Under the pieces are notes generated by a model. That model saw nothing but the letters and a program-made list of their open reading frames with translations, was not told the DNA's origin and ran no database searches. A stretch of DNA of 22,956 nt. Source: a virus. The stretch covers positions 1 to 22,956 of the IMG/VR virus record IMGVR_UViG_3300048088_000034. One strand, given 5' to 3'. Position 1 is the stretch's first letter. The number at the start of each line of letters is the position of its first letter. The position numbers and the translations under genes are program-made. Shown piece after piece: positions 5,774 to 20,789 of the stretch.

Positions 5774-6097
5774 TTATCTCAGACCATATATGATGTAGCC
5801 ATTACAACAACCACCATCCGGTCCCTGAAGGATAGACGGGTCAAAGACCCAACTGATGGTCGCTCCTGATCTTGATACCTTCGCGGGCCAACCTCCCTGA
5901 CCATAGGTTGAGGTGATTGGAGTCGTGGTAGGAAAATACATAACAAATGGAGTACCGGTGGGATCCAATAAGTTATTGTCAGTATATGATCCGTTGTATT
6001 GACCTGTGAAGAAACTACCTTGATATCTGGGGAGATAATCTCCAGATTGAAAGGTCTTTACTCCGCTGGCATTATAAACTTCAAGACCTAAGCCCAT
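5774..6097 (-). CDS. Small tail-tip protein with one 'GLxVxN' domain
   Basis: The protein has 107 residues and starts MGLGLEVYNASGVKTFQS. It is a single-domain relative of the plus-strand protein next door. The middle contains GTPFVMYFPTTTP, comparable to GTFPVYHPPAST in that protein, and the C-terminus is GYIIYGLR. I chose the ATG at 6097 because it overlaps the stop codon of the 1060-residue gene (TAATG) and follows GGGA; the reading from 6103 would use TTG. Coupling to a protein with a J-like C-terminus suggests that it caps or decorates the tip of the tail spike or fibre. That role is inference. Confidence 0.8.
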   Translation of the reverse strand: MGLGLEVYNASGVKTFQSGDYLPRYQGSFFTGQYNGSYTDNNLLDPTGTPFVMYFPTTTPITSTYGQGGWPAKVSRSGATISWVFDPSILQGPDGGCCNGYIIYGLR

Positions 6098-9000
6098 TAC
6101 CAAATCCCCAATCTAATTCTCAAAGTACCATTGGAATCGTAAGTACGAATCCCGTTGTTGTCGATTTCAGTTCTCTGTCCAGTTGATGTGGTTCTCAGCA
6201 AGCCGATACTACCACTAGGACCAGACAACGTTCCGTTCACAGTTCCGCTGAACACACCTCCCGCCGCATTAATTACCCCAGTAAAGTTTGCATTACCGTT
6301 AGAATCAACCGTGAAAGGTGTAGCCACCTTGCTGTTGTCCGGACTTACTAGCTTAAACACACTAGCCTGAACCGCAAAGCTGGATGTCGGATTACCATTG
6401 ATCAAATCATTAACCAATGCGATACCAGAAACATATCCGTTAACATTAGTCTTGATCGCCCACTGTGCCTTGATGTTATTCACATCAGTTGCGCTAGTGG
6501 TTGCCTGAGTCTGGACAGTTGCAAAACTGTAACCATCTACACCGGCTGCTCTCGATCCCACTGCTACCCAATCAATTTGGAATACATCAGAAGCGCTTGT
6601 ATTAGAACCCAAATCAATACGGAGTTGAGTGATCGTGCTTGAAGACCAATCAGAACCTCCAGCAGCAAGATTTGTCATATCCCACTCTAGAACGTACCAA
6701 TCAGCCATTCCCGGATCAGCAGTGATAGTTGCCATATACGAAGAAGAAAATCCGTGACCGGCTGTTGCGTAATACAATGTACCATCCCAACCAGAACCGC
6801 CTGTTCTCTTGACTCTTGCTCTGACCTTGTTATAAGAGGCTCCGTTGATACTGATTATCGGAGACAAAAAGTTAGGGTCATTAGCCGTAGAAGTCAATAA
6901 ACCATATCCGCCAGAAATAGCAAACGTAGCGTGAGTTGCAGTCCAACTACCGGTTACGTTGTTAAAAGGCCAAGTCTGATACGGAGCAAACGAAGCTGCA
7001 TTTCCATTGTTGATTCTGGAAGTAACAGTCTGAATGGCTTGAGCGTTTGCCGAGTCTGCATTAGCACGAGTCGTTGCCTCTGTCGAGATAGCAGAGGTAT
7101 TATCCCCAACTATCGCAGCTAGATTTTGTCTAGCCGTAGCTTCGGCAGTAATCGCATCCGTTCTAGCTTGAACTTCAGTCTGAATCGCTGCTGCATTTTC
7201 ATCGGTTGAAGCCGTCAGCGTCGTGATCAAATCAGATAGAGAACTATCAGCGGCTTGTCTAGCTGTCGCTTCAGCCGTAACCGCTGCGCCTCTATCAGTT
7301 GCTTCCTGTAGGATAGCCGCAGAAATGGCGTCCGTTCTAGCCGCTGCTTCCGACAGAATCTTATTGTTATAATCGACCGCTACTGCTGCTACTTGAGAAT
7401 CAGTATAAGCCTTAGACTCTGAAGGATCATTAACAACATTCCAAGAAGTGCCATCGCTAATATGCAGCTTACCGACTCCAGTAACAGGATCAACAATTGT
7501 ATGAAGGTTATTAACATACAATGTAGGATCAGGCTCAGAACCCGGAACAGACTGACTCAATAGAATTGGCTTATCAAAGGTTACGTGTTTAATGAACACA
7601 GGAGTTTGATTAGATGCCGCATACGTTTGAGTATTGATGTTACCCACTGCCGTTGCCATAGCGTTAGCCACCGCAGGATCAGGGTCGTTATTCTTGATCA
7701 AAGAACTAACTGCTGCCGCAACACCAGCCGCTCCAATACCTACCGCAGCCAAATCGGAAACCCGGAATCCAGTTCCCTTGGATGGAGGGATATCGGGATC
7801 AGAGCTAGAGAAGCCTGAGCTGGTTCCATCACCCGATAAAGTAGCCGATGTAGTTGTACCAGCAGCAGAAGAACCTCCGCTTAGATCATTCAACCCGCCA
7901 GTTGCCGAAGTGTTGCCCGGAGCCAACGTAGTCTGTGTAGCAGGAACTCCGTTAGTCACCCACTTTCTACCACTAGGAGATTGCTTGGATAGATTATTAG
8001 TGAGTTGAGAGTCAGCAGAACCGGCCGCAGACGGGTCGCTGCTTGATCCGGCTGTAAAGCCTAGCGCACCGCCCAACATCGGCGCTCCGCCATCCCTAAG
8101 ATCGTAGGCAACCAGAGCCTCACGGGACAACATATCACCGTAAGAGAATCCGCCGCTCATACCTCCAAACATAGAAGCATTGATGGCAGGAGAATTGATC
8201 TCTCCAGATACCGCCAGCATACCGGTATTCATCTGAACTTTTGGAGCGCCGATGAAGTAGTTACCGCTTGCCTTGAAGATCATATCGCCATCGGTTTGAC
8301 GGTATGACTGACCCTTCACTTGTTGAGTGTAGTTACCCGCAACATGACCATAAGAATCCCCTTGAGCAATTGCATAATGGTCCATAACTGATTTGATCGT
8401 AAATGTTCCTAGAGGGTTAATTTCCCAATAGGTTCCAGTACGATGCGTCATGTTCAAACGCTCTGCTCCAGGAGTATCATCAACTTCACTGAAGTGGCCA
8501 GAGCGAGATTCTGTTACCAAGTTCCAAGGATACTTGCCAGTGTTGCTGGCAGCTTTTGGTTCTATGATAGAAGTGTTTTGAGCAGCGGGGGTCTTTTGCT
8601 CCGACACCGGCGCTGTCGTATCCGGTGTCGGCTCAACTTTTTTTACTGCGTCGTCCGTAGGCTCTTCATCAGACAATACAATCAAAGCAATCTTGTATAG
8701 TGCCATACGGTCGTCTTGACCGTTTAGACCGCCGTTAATTCTCTTGGTGATAGAGACCATATCGCTACGATCAGCATAAGCGTTCAACCCCTTAGAATTC
8801 CAGAACCAACCAGGGCTCATAGCTGCCATAGCAGGTTGAGTTAGCAGATCAGGGTTACTGACGCAGTCAGTGCCGCAAGATTGAGAGAAAGCGCTGTAGG
8901 TAGACTTACCGGTGCATTGGATTAGTCCACGACCCCGGTACTTCCAGCCATCCCCAGAATTCACCGAACCATTACCCATACGATCGCTATATACCACGAT

Positions 9001-9279
9001 AGCAATCTTCTCAGGATTGCGAGCACAGGTATTCGCTAGAGTTGCATCAAAACGACTAGGCCAAGTTCCCTGTAGACCCTTGGCAGAGTAGTTCAAGTTT
9101 TCGCTAACCGCAGATAGACGGCCAGACTCATGCCCCACCTGAGCAATGAAGGCTGCTAGGCGAAGCTTGGTGTTAATTTGATATTGTGCGCAAGCAGCGT
9201 TAATCGCATCAAGCCACTTAGCTTCAGTAGCCGCTCCGCACCCTAGAATCTTGTTTATTTGTCCTGATTTAAATTGCAT
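6097..9279 (-). CDS. Mosaic tail spike: GH19 lysozyme, gp5-type spike, coiled coil, J-like C-terminus
   Basis: The protein has 1060 residues. In order: 1-201 is a GH19-type glycosidase (HESG with E51, ENLNYS with E60, VYSDRMGN, GDGWKYRGRGLIQ), which would cut peptidoglycan. About 202-245 is a Pro/Thr linker. About 249-355 matches the start of T4 gp5 C-terminal spike (ESRSGHFSEVDDTPGAERLN, then RTGTYWEINPLGTFTIKS and a beta-helix-like region). About 356-620 is Gly/Ser-rich, with a small-residue hydrophobic stretch at 507-528. About 620-757 is an Ala-rich coiled coil with repeated EATAR-like units. About 765-908 resembles a jelly-roll carbohydrate-binding module. About 914-995 resembles DUF1983 of lambda-J-type proteins (NIKAQWAIKTNVNGYVSG, then FAVQASVF and PFTVDSNGN). 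The end is LRIRLGIW. It follows gp25 by one base. It probably acts in the virion as the membrane-piercing spike with a local lysozyme. Confidence 0.9.
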   Translation of the reverse strand: MQFKSGQINKILGCGAATEAKWLDAINAACAQYQINTKLRLAAFIAQVGHESGRLSAVSENLNYSAKGLQGTWPSRFDATLANTCARNPEKIAIVVYSDRMGNGSVNSGDGWKYRGRGLIQCTGKSTYSAFSQSCGTDCVSNPDLLTQPAMAAMSPGWFWNSKGLNAYADRSDMVSITKRINGGLNGQDDRMALYKIALIVLSDEEPTDDAVKKVEPTPDTTAPVSEQKTPAAQNTSIIEPKAASNTGKYPWNLVTESRSGHFSEVDDTPGAERLNMTHRTGTYWEINPLGTFTIKSVMDHYAIAQGDSYGHVAGNYTQQVKGQSYRQTDGDMIFKASGNYFIGAPKVQMNTGMLAVSGEINSPAINASMFGGMSGGFSYGDMLSREALVAYDLRDGGAPMLGGALGFTAGSSSDPSAAGSADSQLTNNLSKQSPSGRKWVTNGVPATQTTLAPGNTSATGGLNDLSGGSSAAGTTTSATLSGDGTSSGFSSSDPDIPPSKGTGFRVSDLAAVGIGAAGVAAAVSSLIKNNDPDPAVANAMATAVGNINTQTYAASNQTPVFIKHVTFDKPILLSQSVPGSEPDPTLYVNNLHTIVDPVTGVGKLHISDGTSWNVVNDPSESKAYTDSQVAAVAVDYNNKILSEAAARTDAISAAILQEATDRGAAVTAEATARQAADSSLSDLITTLTASTDENAAAIQTEVQARTDAITAEATARQNLAAIVGDNTSAISTEATTRANADSANAQAIQTVTSRINNGNAASFAPYQTWPFNNVTGSWTATHATFAISGGYGLLTSTANDPNFLSPIISINGASYNKVRARVKRTGGSGWDGTLYYATAGHGFSSSYMATITADPGMADWYVLEWDMTNLAAGGSDWSSSTITQLRIDLGSNTSASDVFQIDWVAVGSRAAGVDGYSFATVQTQATTSATDVNNIKAQWAIKTNVNGYVSGIALVNDLINGNPTSSFAVQASVFKLVSPDNSKVATPFTVDSNGNANFTGVINAAGGVFSGTVNGTLSGPSGSIGLLRTTSTGQRTEIDNNGIRTYDSNGTLRIRLGIW

Positions 9280-9280
9280 T

Positions 9281-9670
9281 TTATCTTAATCTCTTGATTG
9301 GTATAGTTTCGTTAATCACTTGCGGATAGTTAAGAGCATAGAACGTCAAGTTGATATAGATGCCGTAACCGTTCTCAAATCTTTGAATGTCTAGAGTCAC
9401 AATCTCCACTCTAGGCTCGAATCTATCAATAGTTGTCTTGATCCTATCATACAGCTGCATGCGCATCATGTTATCGTTAGGTTCAAATAGCAACTCGCTA
9501 ACCCCGCCACCCATATCAGGCGCCCAAAGGAACTCTCCGGCAGCGGTCATGACTAGATTACGAATAGATTGCAAGATAGATGAAATATCTGTCTTCATAA
9601 CCAAGTCACCCGTCACCGGATGAGTGTTGAAGCTTAGATCAAAATCTCTGTATGTGTATGAATTTGCCAT
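9281..9670 (-). CDS. 25: Baseplate wedge subunit gp25-like
   Basis: The protein has 129 residues (T4 gp25 has 132). It shows the GPW/gp25 fold signature: DISSILQSIRNLVMTAAGEF near residue 28, then a PDMGGGVSELLFEP segment and a C-terminal YALNYPQVINETIPIKRLR. In contractile tails this protein clamps wedge proteins together and helps start sheath assembly. The ribosome site AAGGAAAGTGAT before the ATG overlaps the stop of the upstream gp5-like gene. In this phage the gene sits between the two halves of gp5. Confidence 0.95.
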   Translation of the reverse strand: MANSYTYRDFDLSFNTHPVTGDLVMKTDISSILQSIRNLVMTAAGEFLWAPDMGGGVSELLFEPNDNMMRMQLYDRIKTTIDRFEPRVEIVTLDIQRFENGYGIYINLTFYALNYPQVINETIPIKRLR

Positions 9671-9671
9671 A

Positions 9672-10631
9672 TCACTTTCCTTGTAGGTTGGTCGGCATCA
9701 CGCATCCCAATAAAACTAGACTCTTGCCATTCTTTGGAATATTTGTCTTAGACACGATACCGCCAGAACGCAGAGACTTATCAGATTGGTTCCCACCAAT
9801 ACAGGTCAAGCTTGTTCCATTATCCGCAGACACAAAAGCTACGTGACCAGACCCAGAGTTGGGCACTCCAAATATCGCGATGGCTCCGAACGGCACGTTT
9901 GTCGTACCCACAGACTGACCATAATTCAAATAAGACCTTGAAGAAGCACTTCTGGTACCATTGATATTTACCTGAGCTAGACACCAACCAACGAAAGATG
10001 CACACCAAGCAACGGTAGGTTCTCTCATAAGCCCGCCACCGATTTGGTGATAGATTTTAATAGTATCAGGGTTGTCCGCCTCATTAATCCCTAGCTGAGA
10101 TTGGGCAATAGGCATCCAAGGAGTATCCTTATATGCATTTGGATCCAATACCTTAGCTGGAACTTCAGGATCAGTTGACCCCGGAATCGTAGAAGATACA
10201 ACGTTGTTACTCACATTGAAACTTGAGCCTGTATCCCCATTGCCGCCTGCCTTGATGTTGACATCACCAGTAACTCCCGCTCTAGGATAGTTGCCGCTAG
10301 GATCATTAAATCCCACCTTACCACCATTGAAGAATGAACGGTTTCCGCCTAGGGTGCCCAGAATGATAAATTCTTGCATTCCGTCGTCAGCCGGCAGGCC
10401 GAATACCATTGTGCCAGGAACCACTCCGACAGGGGCAACCCCAACACCGGAGATAAACGCTGAGTTAATTGTTCCTAGAGGTTGACACCACGGAAGCAAC
10501 GAGGTAGGCAATACAGTCAAATCCTCTGAGTGAATACCAATCCACCTAACCCGTAGTCTACCAAGCTGATATGGATCCATGACGTCTTCAACAATTCCAT
10601 AGAGGAACTGATTATTTGTCATTGGAATCAT
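9672..10631 (-). CDS. 5: Baseplate hub gp5-like OB domain fused to a TIGR02594-type peptidase
   Basis: The protein has 319 residues. About 1-100 is the gp5 OB-fold domain (YGIVEDVMDPYQLGRLRVRW, LPWCQPL, then GTLGG), followed by NDPSGNYPR, which also occurs in T4 gp5. About 168-316 is a cysteine-peptidase-like domain of the TIGR02594 type: TPWMPIAQSQLGI, WCASFVGWCL with Cys210, GSGHVAFV with His263, and CIGGNQSD. T4 gp5 has a lysozyme and a beta-helical spike in this position; both are absent here and occur instead in the 1060-residue protein. Such peptidases probably cut peptidoglycan peptides. I chose the ATG at 10631 because it overlaps the upstream stop (ATGA) with GAGG about 10 bases before it; ATGs at 10640 and 10622 are alternatives. 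Confidence 0.92.
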   Translation of the reverse strand: MIPMTNNQFLYGIVEDVMDPYQLGRLRVRWIGIHSEDLTVLPTSLLPWCQPLGTINSAFISGVGVAPVGVVPGTMVFGLPADDGMQEFIILGTLGGNRSFFNGGKVGFNDPSGNYPRAGVTGDVNIKAGGNGDTGSSFNVSNNVVSSTIPGSTDPEVPAKVLDPNAYKDTPWMPIAQSQLGINEADNPDTIKIYHQIGGGLMREPTVAWCASFVGWCLAQVNINGTRSASSRSYLNYGQSVGTTNVPFGAIAIFGVPNSGSGHVAFVSADNGTSLTCIGGNQSDKSLRSGGIVSKTNIPKNGKSLVLLGCVMPTNLQGK

Positions 10632-10972
10632 CTCAACCATACCTCGCCGTAATTGATGACGAAAGTGTTACCGGTAGAATCGGCAGCCAATACTTTCCAA
10701 TATATCTTGTTCTCACGCACGCTGGCTGTGATATCAGTCTTTGGAAATTTGATGGTCATATACCATTGACCTTCTACTTGTTCTGAAGTAACATCGAATG
10801 TGAAATCTGGTGTCTCACTTGCGTAGGCAAGTCTACCTTCGCAAACAATAGTATATTGTCCAGGGATGAATACCGATCCGCTGTCTAGAGTGTATTGAAA
10901 CTTATGCGAGGCATCAGTGCCTCTAAACATAGTAACAATATCGTTGTTCTCGTCTCTGAAATCCTTGAGCAT
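10628..10972 (-). CDS. Probable virion structural protein, 114 residues
   Basis: I do not recognise a family with certainty. The protein is rich in beta-strand-forming residues and ends in a segment typical of small phage structural domains (IYWKVLAADSTGNTFVINYG). It has no signal peptide or membrane segment. The ATG at 10972 follows AGGGACGCAAT. It is the first gene of the minus-strand tail block, directly upstream of and overlapping the gp5-like gene, so a baseplate role is likely. This is the position of gene 53 in T4, but the sequence does not look like gp53. Confidence 0.75.
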   Translation of the reverse strand: MLKDFRDENNDIVTMFRGTDASHKFQYTLDSGSVFIPGQYTIVCEGRLAYASETPDFTFDVTSEQVEGQWYMTIKFPKTDITASVRENKIYWKVLAADSTGNTFVINYGEVWLR

Positions 10973-15812: not shown

Positions 15813-16490
15813 ATGAACCATTATGTATATCAGATAACAAATAACATAAACAGCAAGATTTATGTTGGAGTCAGATCATGTGAATGTGATCCAAATGAAG
15901 ACAAATATATGGGGTCTGGCGTCGCTATCATCAGGGCTCATAATAAGTATGGGTTAGATAACTTTACCAAGGAAATTATAAGTACATTCGATACAAGAGA
16001 ATTGGCCAATATAGCAGAAGCTGAGATTGTCACTTTAGAATTCTGCGATAGACCAGATACGTATAATATGCGAGAAGGCGGAACCAATGGGTTATTGACT
16101 GAGGAACAGAAAACCAGAATATCAGAAACAAGAAGCGGCATCCCGGCTTGGAACAAGGGTATCCCAAGAACTGAAGATGAGAAAAGGAGGATGTCTGAAA
16201 ATCGTATGGGCGTAGAAGCATGGAATAAAGGCATTCCTAGAGATCAGGAAACTAAGGACAAGATTTCCAAAACTAGATTAGAAAGGAAAATCGAATCTCC
16301 ATTCAAGGGAAGAAAACATACTCCAGAGAGCCTAGCTAAACTGAAGGATAAGGTCGTATCTGAAGAAGTTAAAAACAAGATGAGCGAGTCTTGCCGTAAT
16401 CAAGAAAGATATAATTGTATTCATTGCGGAACTGAGTGTACTGCAGGAAACCTTAAGCGATGGCATAACGATAACTGTAAGCACAAATAA
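15813..16490 (+). CDS. GIY-YIG homing endonuclease with NUMOD3 motifs
   Basis: The protein has 225 residues. About 1-90 is a GIY-YIG nuclease domain (YVYQITNNINSKIYVGVRS; the variant core is YVY then YVG). About 96-185 holds NUMOD3-type DNA-binding repeats (ETRSGIPAWNKGIP and ENRMGVEAWNKGIP, then SPFKGRKHTPESLAKL). The C-terminus is a zinc-finger-like CIHCG followed by RWHNDNC. Such Seg-type enzymes cut DNA and spread themselves. The gene is on the opposite strand to its neighbours, which are intact, so it is free-standing rather than inside an intron. It uses the frequent codon AAA and appears slightly more AT-rich than its surroundings, consistent with horizontal arrival. The ribosome site is weak (AAAGG). 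Confidence 0.93.
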   Translation: MNHYVYQITNNINSKIYVGVRSCECDPNEDKYMGSGVAIIRAHNKYGLDNFTKEIISTFDTRELANIAEAEIVTLEFCDRPDTYNMREGGTNGLLTEEQKTRISETRSGIPAWNKGIPRTEDEKRRMSENRMGVEAWNKGIPRDQETKDKISKTRLERKIESPFKGRKHTPESLAKLKDKVVSEEVKNKMSESCRNQERYNCIHCGTECTAGNLKRWHNDNCKHK

Positions 16491-20291: not shown

Positions 20292-20789
20292 TCACATGTC
20301 CGACCGTCTAGGACGATAGAAAGCATGATCCCCGATCCTAGCAGTCACCTTATAGTGAACAAGCCAATTCTTGTCAGTGGCTAACTTAGGGTTGACGAAA
20401 TACAAAGACCCATGAGTCGGGTCTGCTCGATCCCCTTGCCAAGCCACCAAAGATGCCTTGATCGATTCCTCCATTTGTTTCTTTACGCCTGGTTTATCTT
20501 CCTTGATCCAAGTGACCTTCTTGAGAAAGTCAAATTGACCTCGCTGTCTTACTACCGCACATACATCGTCTGGGAAATTGCTGCTCTTTGTACGGTTGAT
20601 AATCACATAGGCTACAGCAATCTTTCCTTCCATGGATTGATTACCGGCTTCGCCGTGAACAGCTTGCGATAGGCAAGCTACTTCTTTGAGATTATCTATA
20701 TTGTCCATGTTTATGGCTGGTGGCTGAGATGCGCCGATGTTAACTGCCATAAACATTGATACTATCATCGCCTTGAATTGGGCAAGCAT
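20292..20789 (-). CDS. SleB-type cell-wall hydrolase with signal peptide
   Basis: The protein has 165 residues. It contains the Hydrolase_2 (SleB) domain: CLSQAVHGEAGNQSMEGK with the likely catalytic Glu47, GKIAVAYVIINRTKSSNFPD, RGQFDFL, and GDHAFYR near the end. SleB-type enzymes cleave peptidoglycan glycan strands. The first 20 residues (MLAQFKAMIVSMFMAVNIGA) look like a signal peptide or signal-anchor, so it would be exported by Sec and act in the periplasm, probably as a lysis enzyme. The ATG at 20789 has a strong AAAGGAG site. The gene has its own T4-type early promoter (20865-20893), which is unusual for a lysis gene and may mean regulation at the protein level or a different role. Confidence 0.87.
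   Translation of the reverse strand: MLAQFKAMIVSMFMAVNIGASQPPAINMDNIDNLKEVACLSQAVHGEAGNQSMEGKIAVAYVIINRTKSSNFPDDVCAVVRQRGQFDFLKKVTWIKEDKPGVKKQMEESIKASLVAWQGDRADPTHGSLYFVNPKLATDKNWLVHYKVTARIGDHAFYRPRRSDM

Follow-up and report, generated by a model that had tools for sequence, protein, structure and literature searches.

A T4-type gp5 encoded as two separate genes, each half with its own wall-degrading domain, in an uncultivated phage and its relatives

The virus record IMGVR_UViG_3300048088_000034 encodes a T4-type gp5 in two separate genes, and each of the two halves carries a wall-degrading domain of its own. The DNA analyzed here (the window) is a 22,956-base fragment of this record. gp5 is the textbook example of a protein that punctures cells. 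In T4 (PDB 1k28), it is a single polypeptide with one lysozyme, which is cut during maturation between the enzyme and the needle, so that the mature protein consists of two chains. The cleavage site is Ser351/Ala352, within the linker between lysozyme and needle, and the cleaved protein functions as a gp5*3-gp5C3 complex (PMC3004832). With gp5C bound, the lysozyme activity of the trimer is only 10% of that of free gp5*, and it remains at this level until the needle dissociates, because the needle and linker obstruct the active site (PMC3004832). The OB fold and the needle of the window are homologous to those of T4. Unlike in T4, they lie on separate open reading frames (ORFs) with a gp25 gene between them, and they are accompanied by two enzymes of other families. 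Pfam searches found no Phage_lysozyme (PF00959) domain in the middle; CHAP and GH19 domains are present instead. The split is a variant of gp5 and not a new kind of machine.

The two halves belong to a minus-strand run of genes, which is transcribed in the order 114-amino-acid gene, OB-CHAP gene, gp25 gene, GH19-needle-fibre gene and 109-amino-acid gene. The three central genes share the same orientation and are separated from their neighbours by one-base gaps. The OB-CHAP gene overlaps the 114-amino-acid gene by a few bases, as does the GH19-needle gene the 109-amino-acid gene. The gp25 gene had already been placed between the halves by the original prediction, which was made from the DNA letters, and its PF04965 match (E 1.7e-12) agrees with this.

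The OB-CHAP ORF has two possible starts, at 10640 or 10631. Its protein scored 85 bits with Gp5_OB (PF06714; cut-off 25, E 7.3e-24), and phmmer aligned it to residues 2-159 of T4 gp5 (E 1e-21), with GFSDPTGQYPR of T4 opposite GFNDPSGNYPR. CHAP (PF05257) was above its cut-off at residues 209-284 (E 3e-8). TIGR02594 was matched at residues 174-288 with E 7e-19, its 68.5 bits lying just below the cut-off of 70.55. These matches bear out the claim that an OB fold and an NDPSGNYPR segment share one gene with a TIGR02594-type peptidase. The putative catalytic residues Cys213 and His266 are the same in all seven rows of an alignment in which the relatives are 34-84% identical. In a scan of reference genomes with the OB-CHAP protein, matches covered the enzyme half or less.

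The second protein starts with a GH19 domain, which matched PF00182 with 26.8 bits (cut-off 25.5) and solved phage GH19 endolysins with E-values down to 6e-49. Glu51 and Glu60 are assigned as the putative catalytic residues from general knowledge of GH19 enzymes, and both align across relatives. Residues 221-344 matched T4 gp5 356-483 (E about 9e-14), and the needle segment searched alone matched T4 gp5 358-476 (E 1e-15). Five consecutive octads were found at residues 305-344 with a loosely defined VxGxxxxx rule (shuffle p about 0.002), and the same loose rule gave a run of 10 in T4 gp5. The start of the gp5 spike was thus recovered behind GH19, as had been predicted for this gene. The profile checks proposed for the OB and C-terminal parts of gp5 both returned matches, and the two halves do carry two different wall-degrading domains, one each.

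The gp5 homology in the second protein starts just past the T4 cut, since T4 is cut at Ser351/Ala352 and the match begins at about residue 356. The comparison drawn earlier between the split and the T4 cleavage between lysozyme and spike is therefore apt. The distance from the enzyme to the SGH motif is 56 residues in the window and 57 in T4, and that from DPSGNYP to the enzyme is about 54 in the window and 52 in T4 (T4 domain limits from PMC7650644). These lengths indicate that each enzyme retains one of the two linkers that flank the lysozyme in T4. In phage Ag3, whose gp5 is fused, the linker between enzyme and needle reads RWPGPAN...PDRTPKEQATP. In Delftia phage PhiW-14, which has the split, the first protein ends in RWPADVPPKKEFN-stop, and the second consists of GH19 followed by IDDRTPNKTP. 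When the two are read together, it looks as if a GH19 coding sequence had entered a fused gp5 at its linker.

The same gene pair was found in PhiW-14, in Acinetobacter phages SH-Ab 15599 and nACB2, and in the IMG/VR contigs L009, L010, L011/L012 and L013. The original prediction described the split as a feature of this phage and suggested a survey of related phages. The split is indeed present in the window, but it is not peculiar to it, as these three isolates and the contigs share it. The tails of PhiW-14 (PMC5977210) and nACB2 (PMC10057805) are contractile according to electron microscopy. A search for a spare complete gp5 relied on the larger records of the relatives, the window being a short fragment. 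Each of PhiW-14, SH-Ab 15599, nACB2, L009, L010, L012 and L013 gave a single OB match and a single needle match, located on different ORFs, so no spare complete gp5 was found in these seven relatives. Because the window comes from an uncultivated phage and is only a fragment, the split might be suspected of being an error of assembly or sequencing, or the decay of a gp5 gene. The chance of this is negligible, because both ORFs recur, with their catalytic residues kept, in the three isolates and in several independent contigs, and because the break holds or borders the gp25 gene and a complete GH19 domain. A frameshift artefact was considered and likewise dropped.

The GH19-needle protein could also be read as an endolysin for progeny release. 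RefSeq calls PhiW-14 gp82 an endolysin, phrog_181 is filed under lysis in PHROGs, and the GH19 part shares about 45-50% identity with endolysins of Pseudomonas phages. However, the protein contains T4 needle sequence, its gene sits with the OB and gp25 genes, and GenBank names the same PhiW-14 gene as the gp5 hub/lysozyme. In addition, the window has another wall hydrolase at 20292-20789 (minus strand), a Hydrolase_2, SleB-like protein with a hydrophobic N-terminus, which is a candidate for the true endolysin. A role in lysis is therefore very improbable.

To follow the split more widely, hidden Markov models built for the OB and needle parts were run over every fetched locus. The sample was seeded from the window proteins and their relatives and is no census. 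Among 105 dereplicated needle ORFs, the OB part was present in 78 and absent from 26, and one ORF was truncated. Several kinds of needle ORF without OB were found. The first is the window clade, with CHAP and GH19. The second, in Agrobacterium phage OLIVR5 and Ochrobactrum phage ORM_20, pairs an OB-CHAP protein with a needle gene tens of kb distant. Marine contigs have OB with Phage_lysozyme2 and a needle gene with its own DPSG-type segment, and some contigs have OB with a VanY/M15-type peptidase. A nearly bare needle gene starts at about the T4 cut, and in some contigs it lies beside an OB protein without a recognised enzyme. The OB clade was supported at 96/83. An unrooted tree was calculated from the OB and needle columns, on which parsimony required five changes between the split and fused states (bootstrap 5-6), at least three of which were forced by supported branches. 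A single clade of all splits was rejected by the approximately unbiased (AU) test (p-AU 0.028), and a single origin of the window clade and the OLIVR5 pair was not (p 0.19). A supported clade has the split state in common, and the same state is found elsewhere with other enzymes; it is likely that it arose more than once in T4-like phages. The direction of change, from fused to split, is one that we infer, because the tree is unrooted.

Two further arrangements were seen in the same sample. Contigs L037-L040 have tandem OB-needle genes in one phage (in L037, 7980-8813 and 8845-10347), of which one encodes a 278-amino-acid enzyme-less protein and the other a 501-amino-acid protein with Phage_lysozyme. 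In L018, L042 and L044, an enzyme-less OB-needle gene is followed by a separate gene with a helical region and GH19 and then by gp25, which may be an intermediate arrangement. Three candidates for a named split, Aeromonas phage avDM4 with its '5_2', Xanthomonas phage X1 and Aeromonas phage PX29, had to be rejected, since each has a single gene there.

The explanation that we consider probable is that gp5 is genetically pre-cleaved in these phages, with halves that rejoin 3+3 on the hub and deliver one peptide-cutting and one glycan-cutting enzyme. The phage would encode as already cut what T4 cuts by proteolysis. As the halves would be made separately, no cleavage would be required. OB-CHAP would be the equivalent of gp5*, a hub trimer bearing the peptide-cutting enzyme, and GH19-needle would be the equivalent of gp5C, a trimeric beta-helical needle with the glycan-cutting enzyme at its N-terminus. 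After reassembly, the hub-needle complex would puncture the outer membrane and deliver both enzymes, in three copies each, to the peptidoglycan, where CHAP would attack the stem peptides and GH19 the glycan strands. The ancestor was most likely a fused OB-CHAP-needle gp5 of the Ag3/CBA120 type, whose enzyme-needle linker was opened when a GH19 coding sequence of endolysin type, which had a start codon of its own, was inserted there. In the branch of the window, the gp25 gene separates the halves, and the needle would have acquired a J-like tip.

Several points weigh against this explanation. The AlphaFold model of OB-CHAP is weak (mean pLDDT, the predicted local distance difference test, 53), though Foldseek lends it weak support, with T4 gp5 as the top PDB match to this model and NlpC/P60/CHAP enzymes after it. 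The model of the needle (residues 205-640, seven rows) is unusable at a mean pLDDT of 32. The alignment to T4 is limited to the beginning of the needle, where the run of octads is short, and no significant run was obtained with the octad rule in PhiW-14, the Acinetobacter phages or fused Ag3. The tree rests on 207 columns, and the group for the AU test was named after the first tree had been seen; therefore, the repeated origin is likely rather than proven. We infer the 3+3 assembly, the enzyme activity, the insertion mechanism and the role of the fibre tip.

Two other explanations accept the domains but read the split differently. According to one, the GH19-needle protein is a separate spike or fibre for host binding and wall digestion that uses a gp5C-like domain, and OB-CHAP alone is a needle-less hub cap. 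The long J-like C-terminus of the window protein and the distance of tens of kb between the genes in OLIVR5 and ORM_20 are in favour of this. It is nevertheless quite unlikely, because the large records yielded no further needle of the gp5 type, because the two genes of the window clade are adjacent or have only gp25 between them, and because a fused form exists in Ag3 and CBA120. According to the other, the halves do assemble, but the split is a neutral accident and one hydrolase is inactive or only a scaffold. The gp5 of P1 consists of OB and needle with no lysozyme (PMC9024508), and many of the sampled fused gp5 proteins have no room for an enzyme, which indicates that a gp5 enzyme is not always needed. 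In contrast, both enzymes retain their putative catalytic residues in relatives that are only 36-47% identical to the window, which makes a neutral accident unlikely.

The second protein is more than GH19 and needle, and its matches identify the C-terminal half as a tail-tip fibre like that of lambda J and the gene transfer agent (GTA). The region past the needle resembles the central straight fibre of lambda J (E 7e-7). The protein also has a Megatron-like beta domain and the Phage_Tail_Tip domain, the latter of which was found also in L013. The last 43 residues match the ends of ORFs of 1401-1551 amino acids in L169-L171, which are phage contigs of about 40 kb. The N-terminal hub domains of lambda J (gp27-like) are absent from the window protein, and GH19 and the gp5 needle form its N-terminus. 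The J-like C-terminus, which is unexpected on a T4-type needle, is common only to the window and its two closest relatives, L009 and L013. The needle proteins of PhiW-14, SH-Ab 15599, nACB2, L010 and L011 are 480-600 amino acids long and lack it. The two genes after the fibre tip are kept together with it in L009 and L013. No PAAR tip (PF05488) was found in the large relatives searched or in fused Ag3, and T4 was positive in the same search. The J-like tip in the window's branch is probably receptor-binding. A broader hypothesis can be put forward only tentatively, and we lean against it: T4-like phages may repeatedly have turned the maturation cleavage of gp5 into a gene split that frees the enzyme from inhibition by the needle, with each half taking its own hydrolase, and the needle of the window may moreover be a host-binding central fibre through its lambda-J-type tip, so that one protein would recognise, pierce and digest the cell. 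The coordinates of all features are listed in Table 1.

Table 1. Position of the gp5 halves, their domains and the neighbouring genes in the window
Feature	Position	Strand	Evidence
114-amino-acid gene directly upstream, overlapping the OB gene, co-oriented	10628..10972	-	conserved in L009 and L013
gp5 N-terminal half, OB fold and CHAP/TIGR02594 peptidoglycan hydrolase, 322 amino acids	9672..10640	-	PF06714, PF05257, T4 gp5 1-159 by phmmer, TIGR02594
OB domain through DPSGNYPR segment, residues 1-122	10275..10640	-	Pfam, phmmer, alignment
CHAP/TIGR02594 domain, residues 174-288; putative catalytic Cys213 (10002-10004) and His266 (9843-9845)	9777..10121	-	profiles, alignment
gp25-like baseplate wedge/sheath-initiator, between the gp5 halves	9281..9670	-	PF04965 E 1.7e-12
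gp5 C-terminal half fused to GH19 and fibre tip, 1060 amino acids	6097..9279	-	Pfam, T4 gp5 needle match
GH19 lysozyme/endolysin domain, residues 1-203; putative catalytic Glu51 and Glu60	8671..9279	-	PF00182, solved GH19 endolysins
Linker, residues 204-248, positional homologue of the linker cleaved in T4	8536..8670	-	alignments, distances
Needle start YPWN...SGH..EVDDTPG..ER and first octads, residues 249-345	8245..8535	-	T4 gp5 358-476 E 1e-15; needle profile
Five VxGxxxxx-type octads, residues 305-344	8248..8367	-	octad rule
Beta domain like Megatron of 8gtc, residues 769-909	6553..6975	-	phmmer E 1e-18
Phage_Tail_Tip (PF09327), lambda-J-type tip, residues 922-999	6283..6516	-	31.4 bits, cut-off 22
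Last 43 residues of the needle protein, 60-65% identical to L169-L171 ORF ends	6100..6228	-	comparison
109-amino-acid gene after the fibre tip (window, L013, L009)	5774..6103	-	phrog_2427 E 1e-11, synteny
259-amino-acid gene on the strand opposite to the tip gene, conserved in L009 and L013	4994-5773	+	weak DUF6453 match

The pair of genes can be compared with several known systems. CBA120, ViI and Ag3 (Ackermannviridae) have the same combination of OB and CHAP/TIGR02594 and the needle start. Unlike the window, they have them in a single fused protein without GH19. The OB-CHAP-needle protein was seen here in Ag3 and in contig L015. The fused CBA120 gp5 with its CHAP/TIGR02594 enzyme was described in 2011, and its ViI ortholog was detected in virions (PMC3184105). 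Replacement of the T4 lysozyme by CHAP/TIGR02594 is therefore not new. No description of a gp5 split or gene fission was found in the papers searched, which included few from subscription journals. PhiW-14, SH-Ab 15599 and nACB2 have the same split and the same two enzymes. They differ in that gp25 follows both halves and in that their needle proteins have 480-588 amino acids and no J-like fibre. OLIVR5 and ORM_20 resemble the window in having a needle-less OB-CHAP protein and a second protein with the needle start, but their genes are far apart, and the needle protein has a long helical N-terminus. This N-terminal region had been read by eye as a lytic transglycosylase, which Pfam, PHROGs and PDB searches did not confirm. 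The uncultivated phages with OB and Phage_lysozyme2, OB and VanY or a nearly bare needle also encode gp5 as OB and needle genes. Their enzymes and breakpoints are different, and some of their OB proteins have no recognised enzyme. The Anabaena myophage A-1(L) likewise brings a peptidase and an endoglucanase to the centre of the baseplate, but there the hub protein carries both activities, and a single protein with OB fold and beta-helix forms the spike (PMC10966104).

Phages with separate genes offer natural tests of whether activation, assembly or neither of them depends on the cleavage of gp5. The boundary that is cut in T4 permits the exchange of parts, with CHAP, GH19, Phage_lysozyme2, VanY-type enzymes or none at this position. 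Current annotation overlooks the split. The OB-CHAP ORF of PhiW-14 (L002 7931-8917, GQ357915.1), its first half of gp5, lacks a GenBank annotation. In ORM_20 (L173/L261, L007), both distant halves are named 'baseplate hub subunit and tail lysozyme', so that the gp5 name is duplicated. The genes annotated as 'lysozyme family protein' in SH-Ab 15599 (L003 10430-10801) and nACB2 (L004 10397-10768) are gp25 homologues, and the one in nACB2 was taken as the only lysis gene of the phage in the nACB2 paper.

Elsewhere in the window, T4-like replication genes, such as those for a DNA polymerase, a single-strand binding protein and a PhoH-like protein, were recognised from ORF translations, and PhoH was also supported by a match. 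An ORF of 225 amino acids at 15813-16490 on the opposite (plus) strand reads like a GIY-YIG/NUMOD homing endonuclease.

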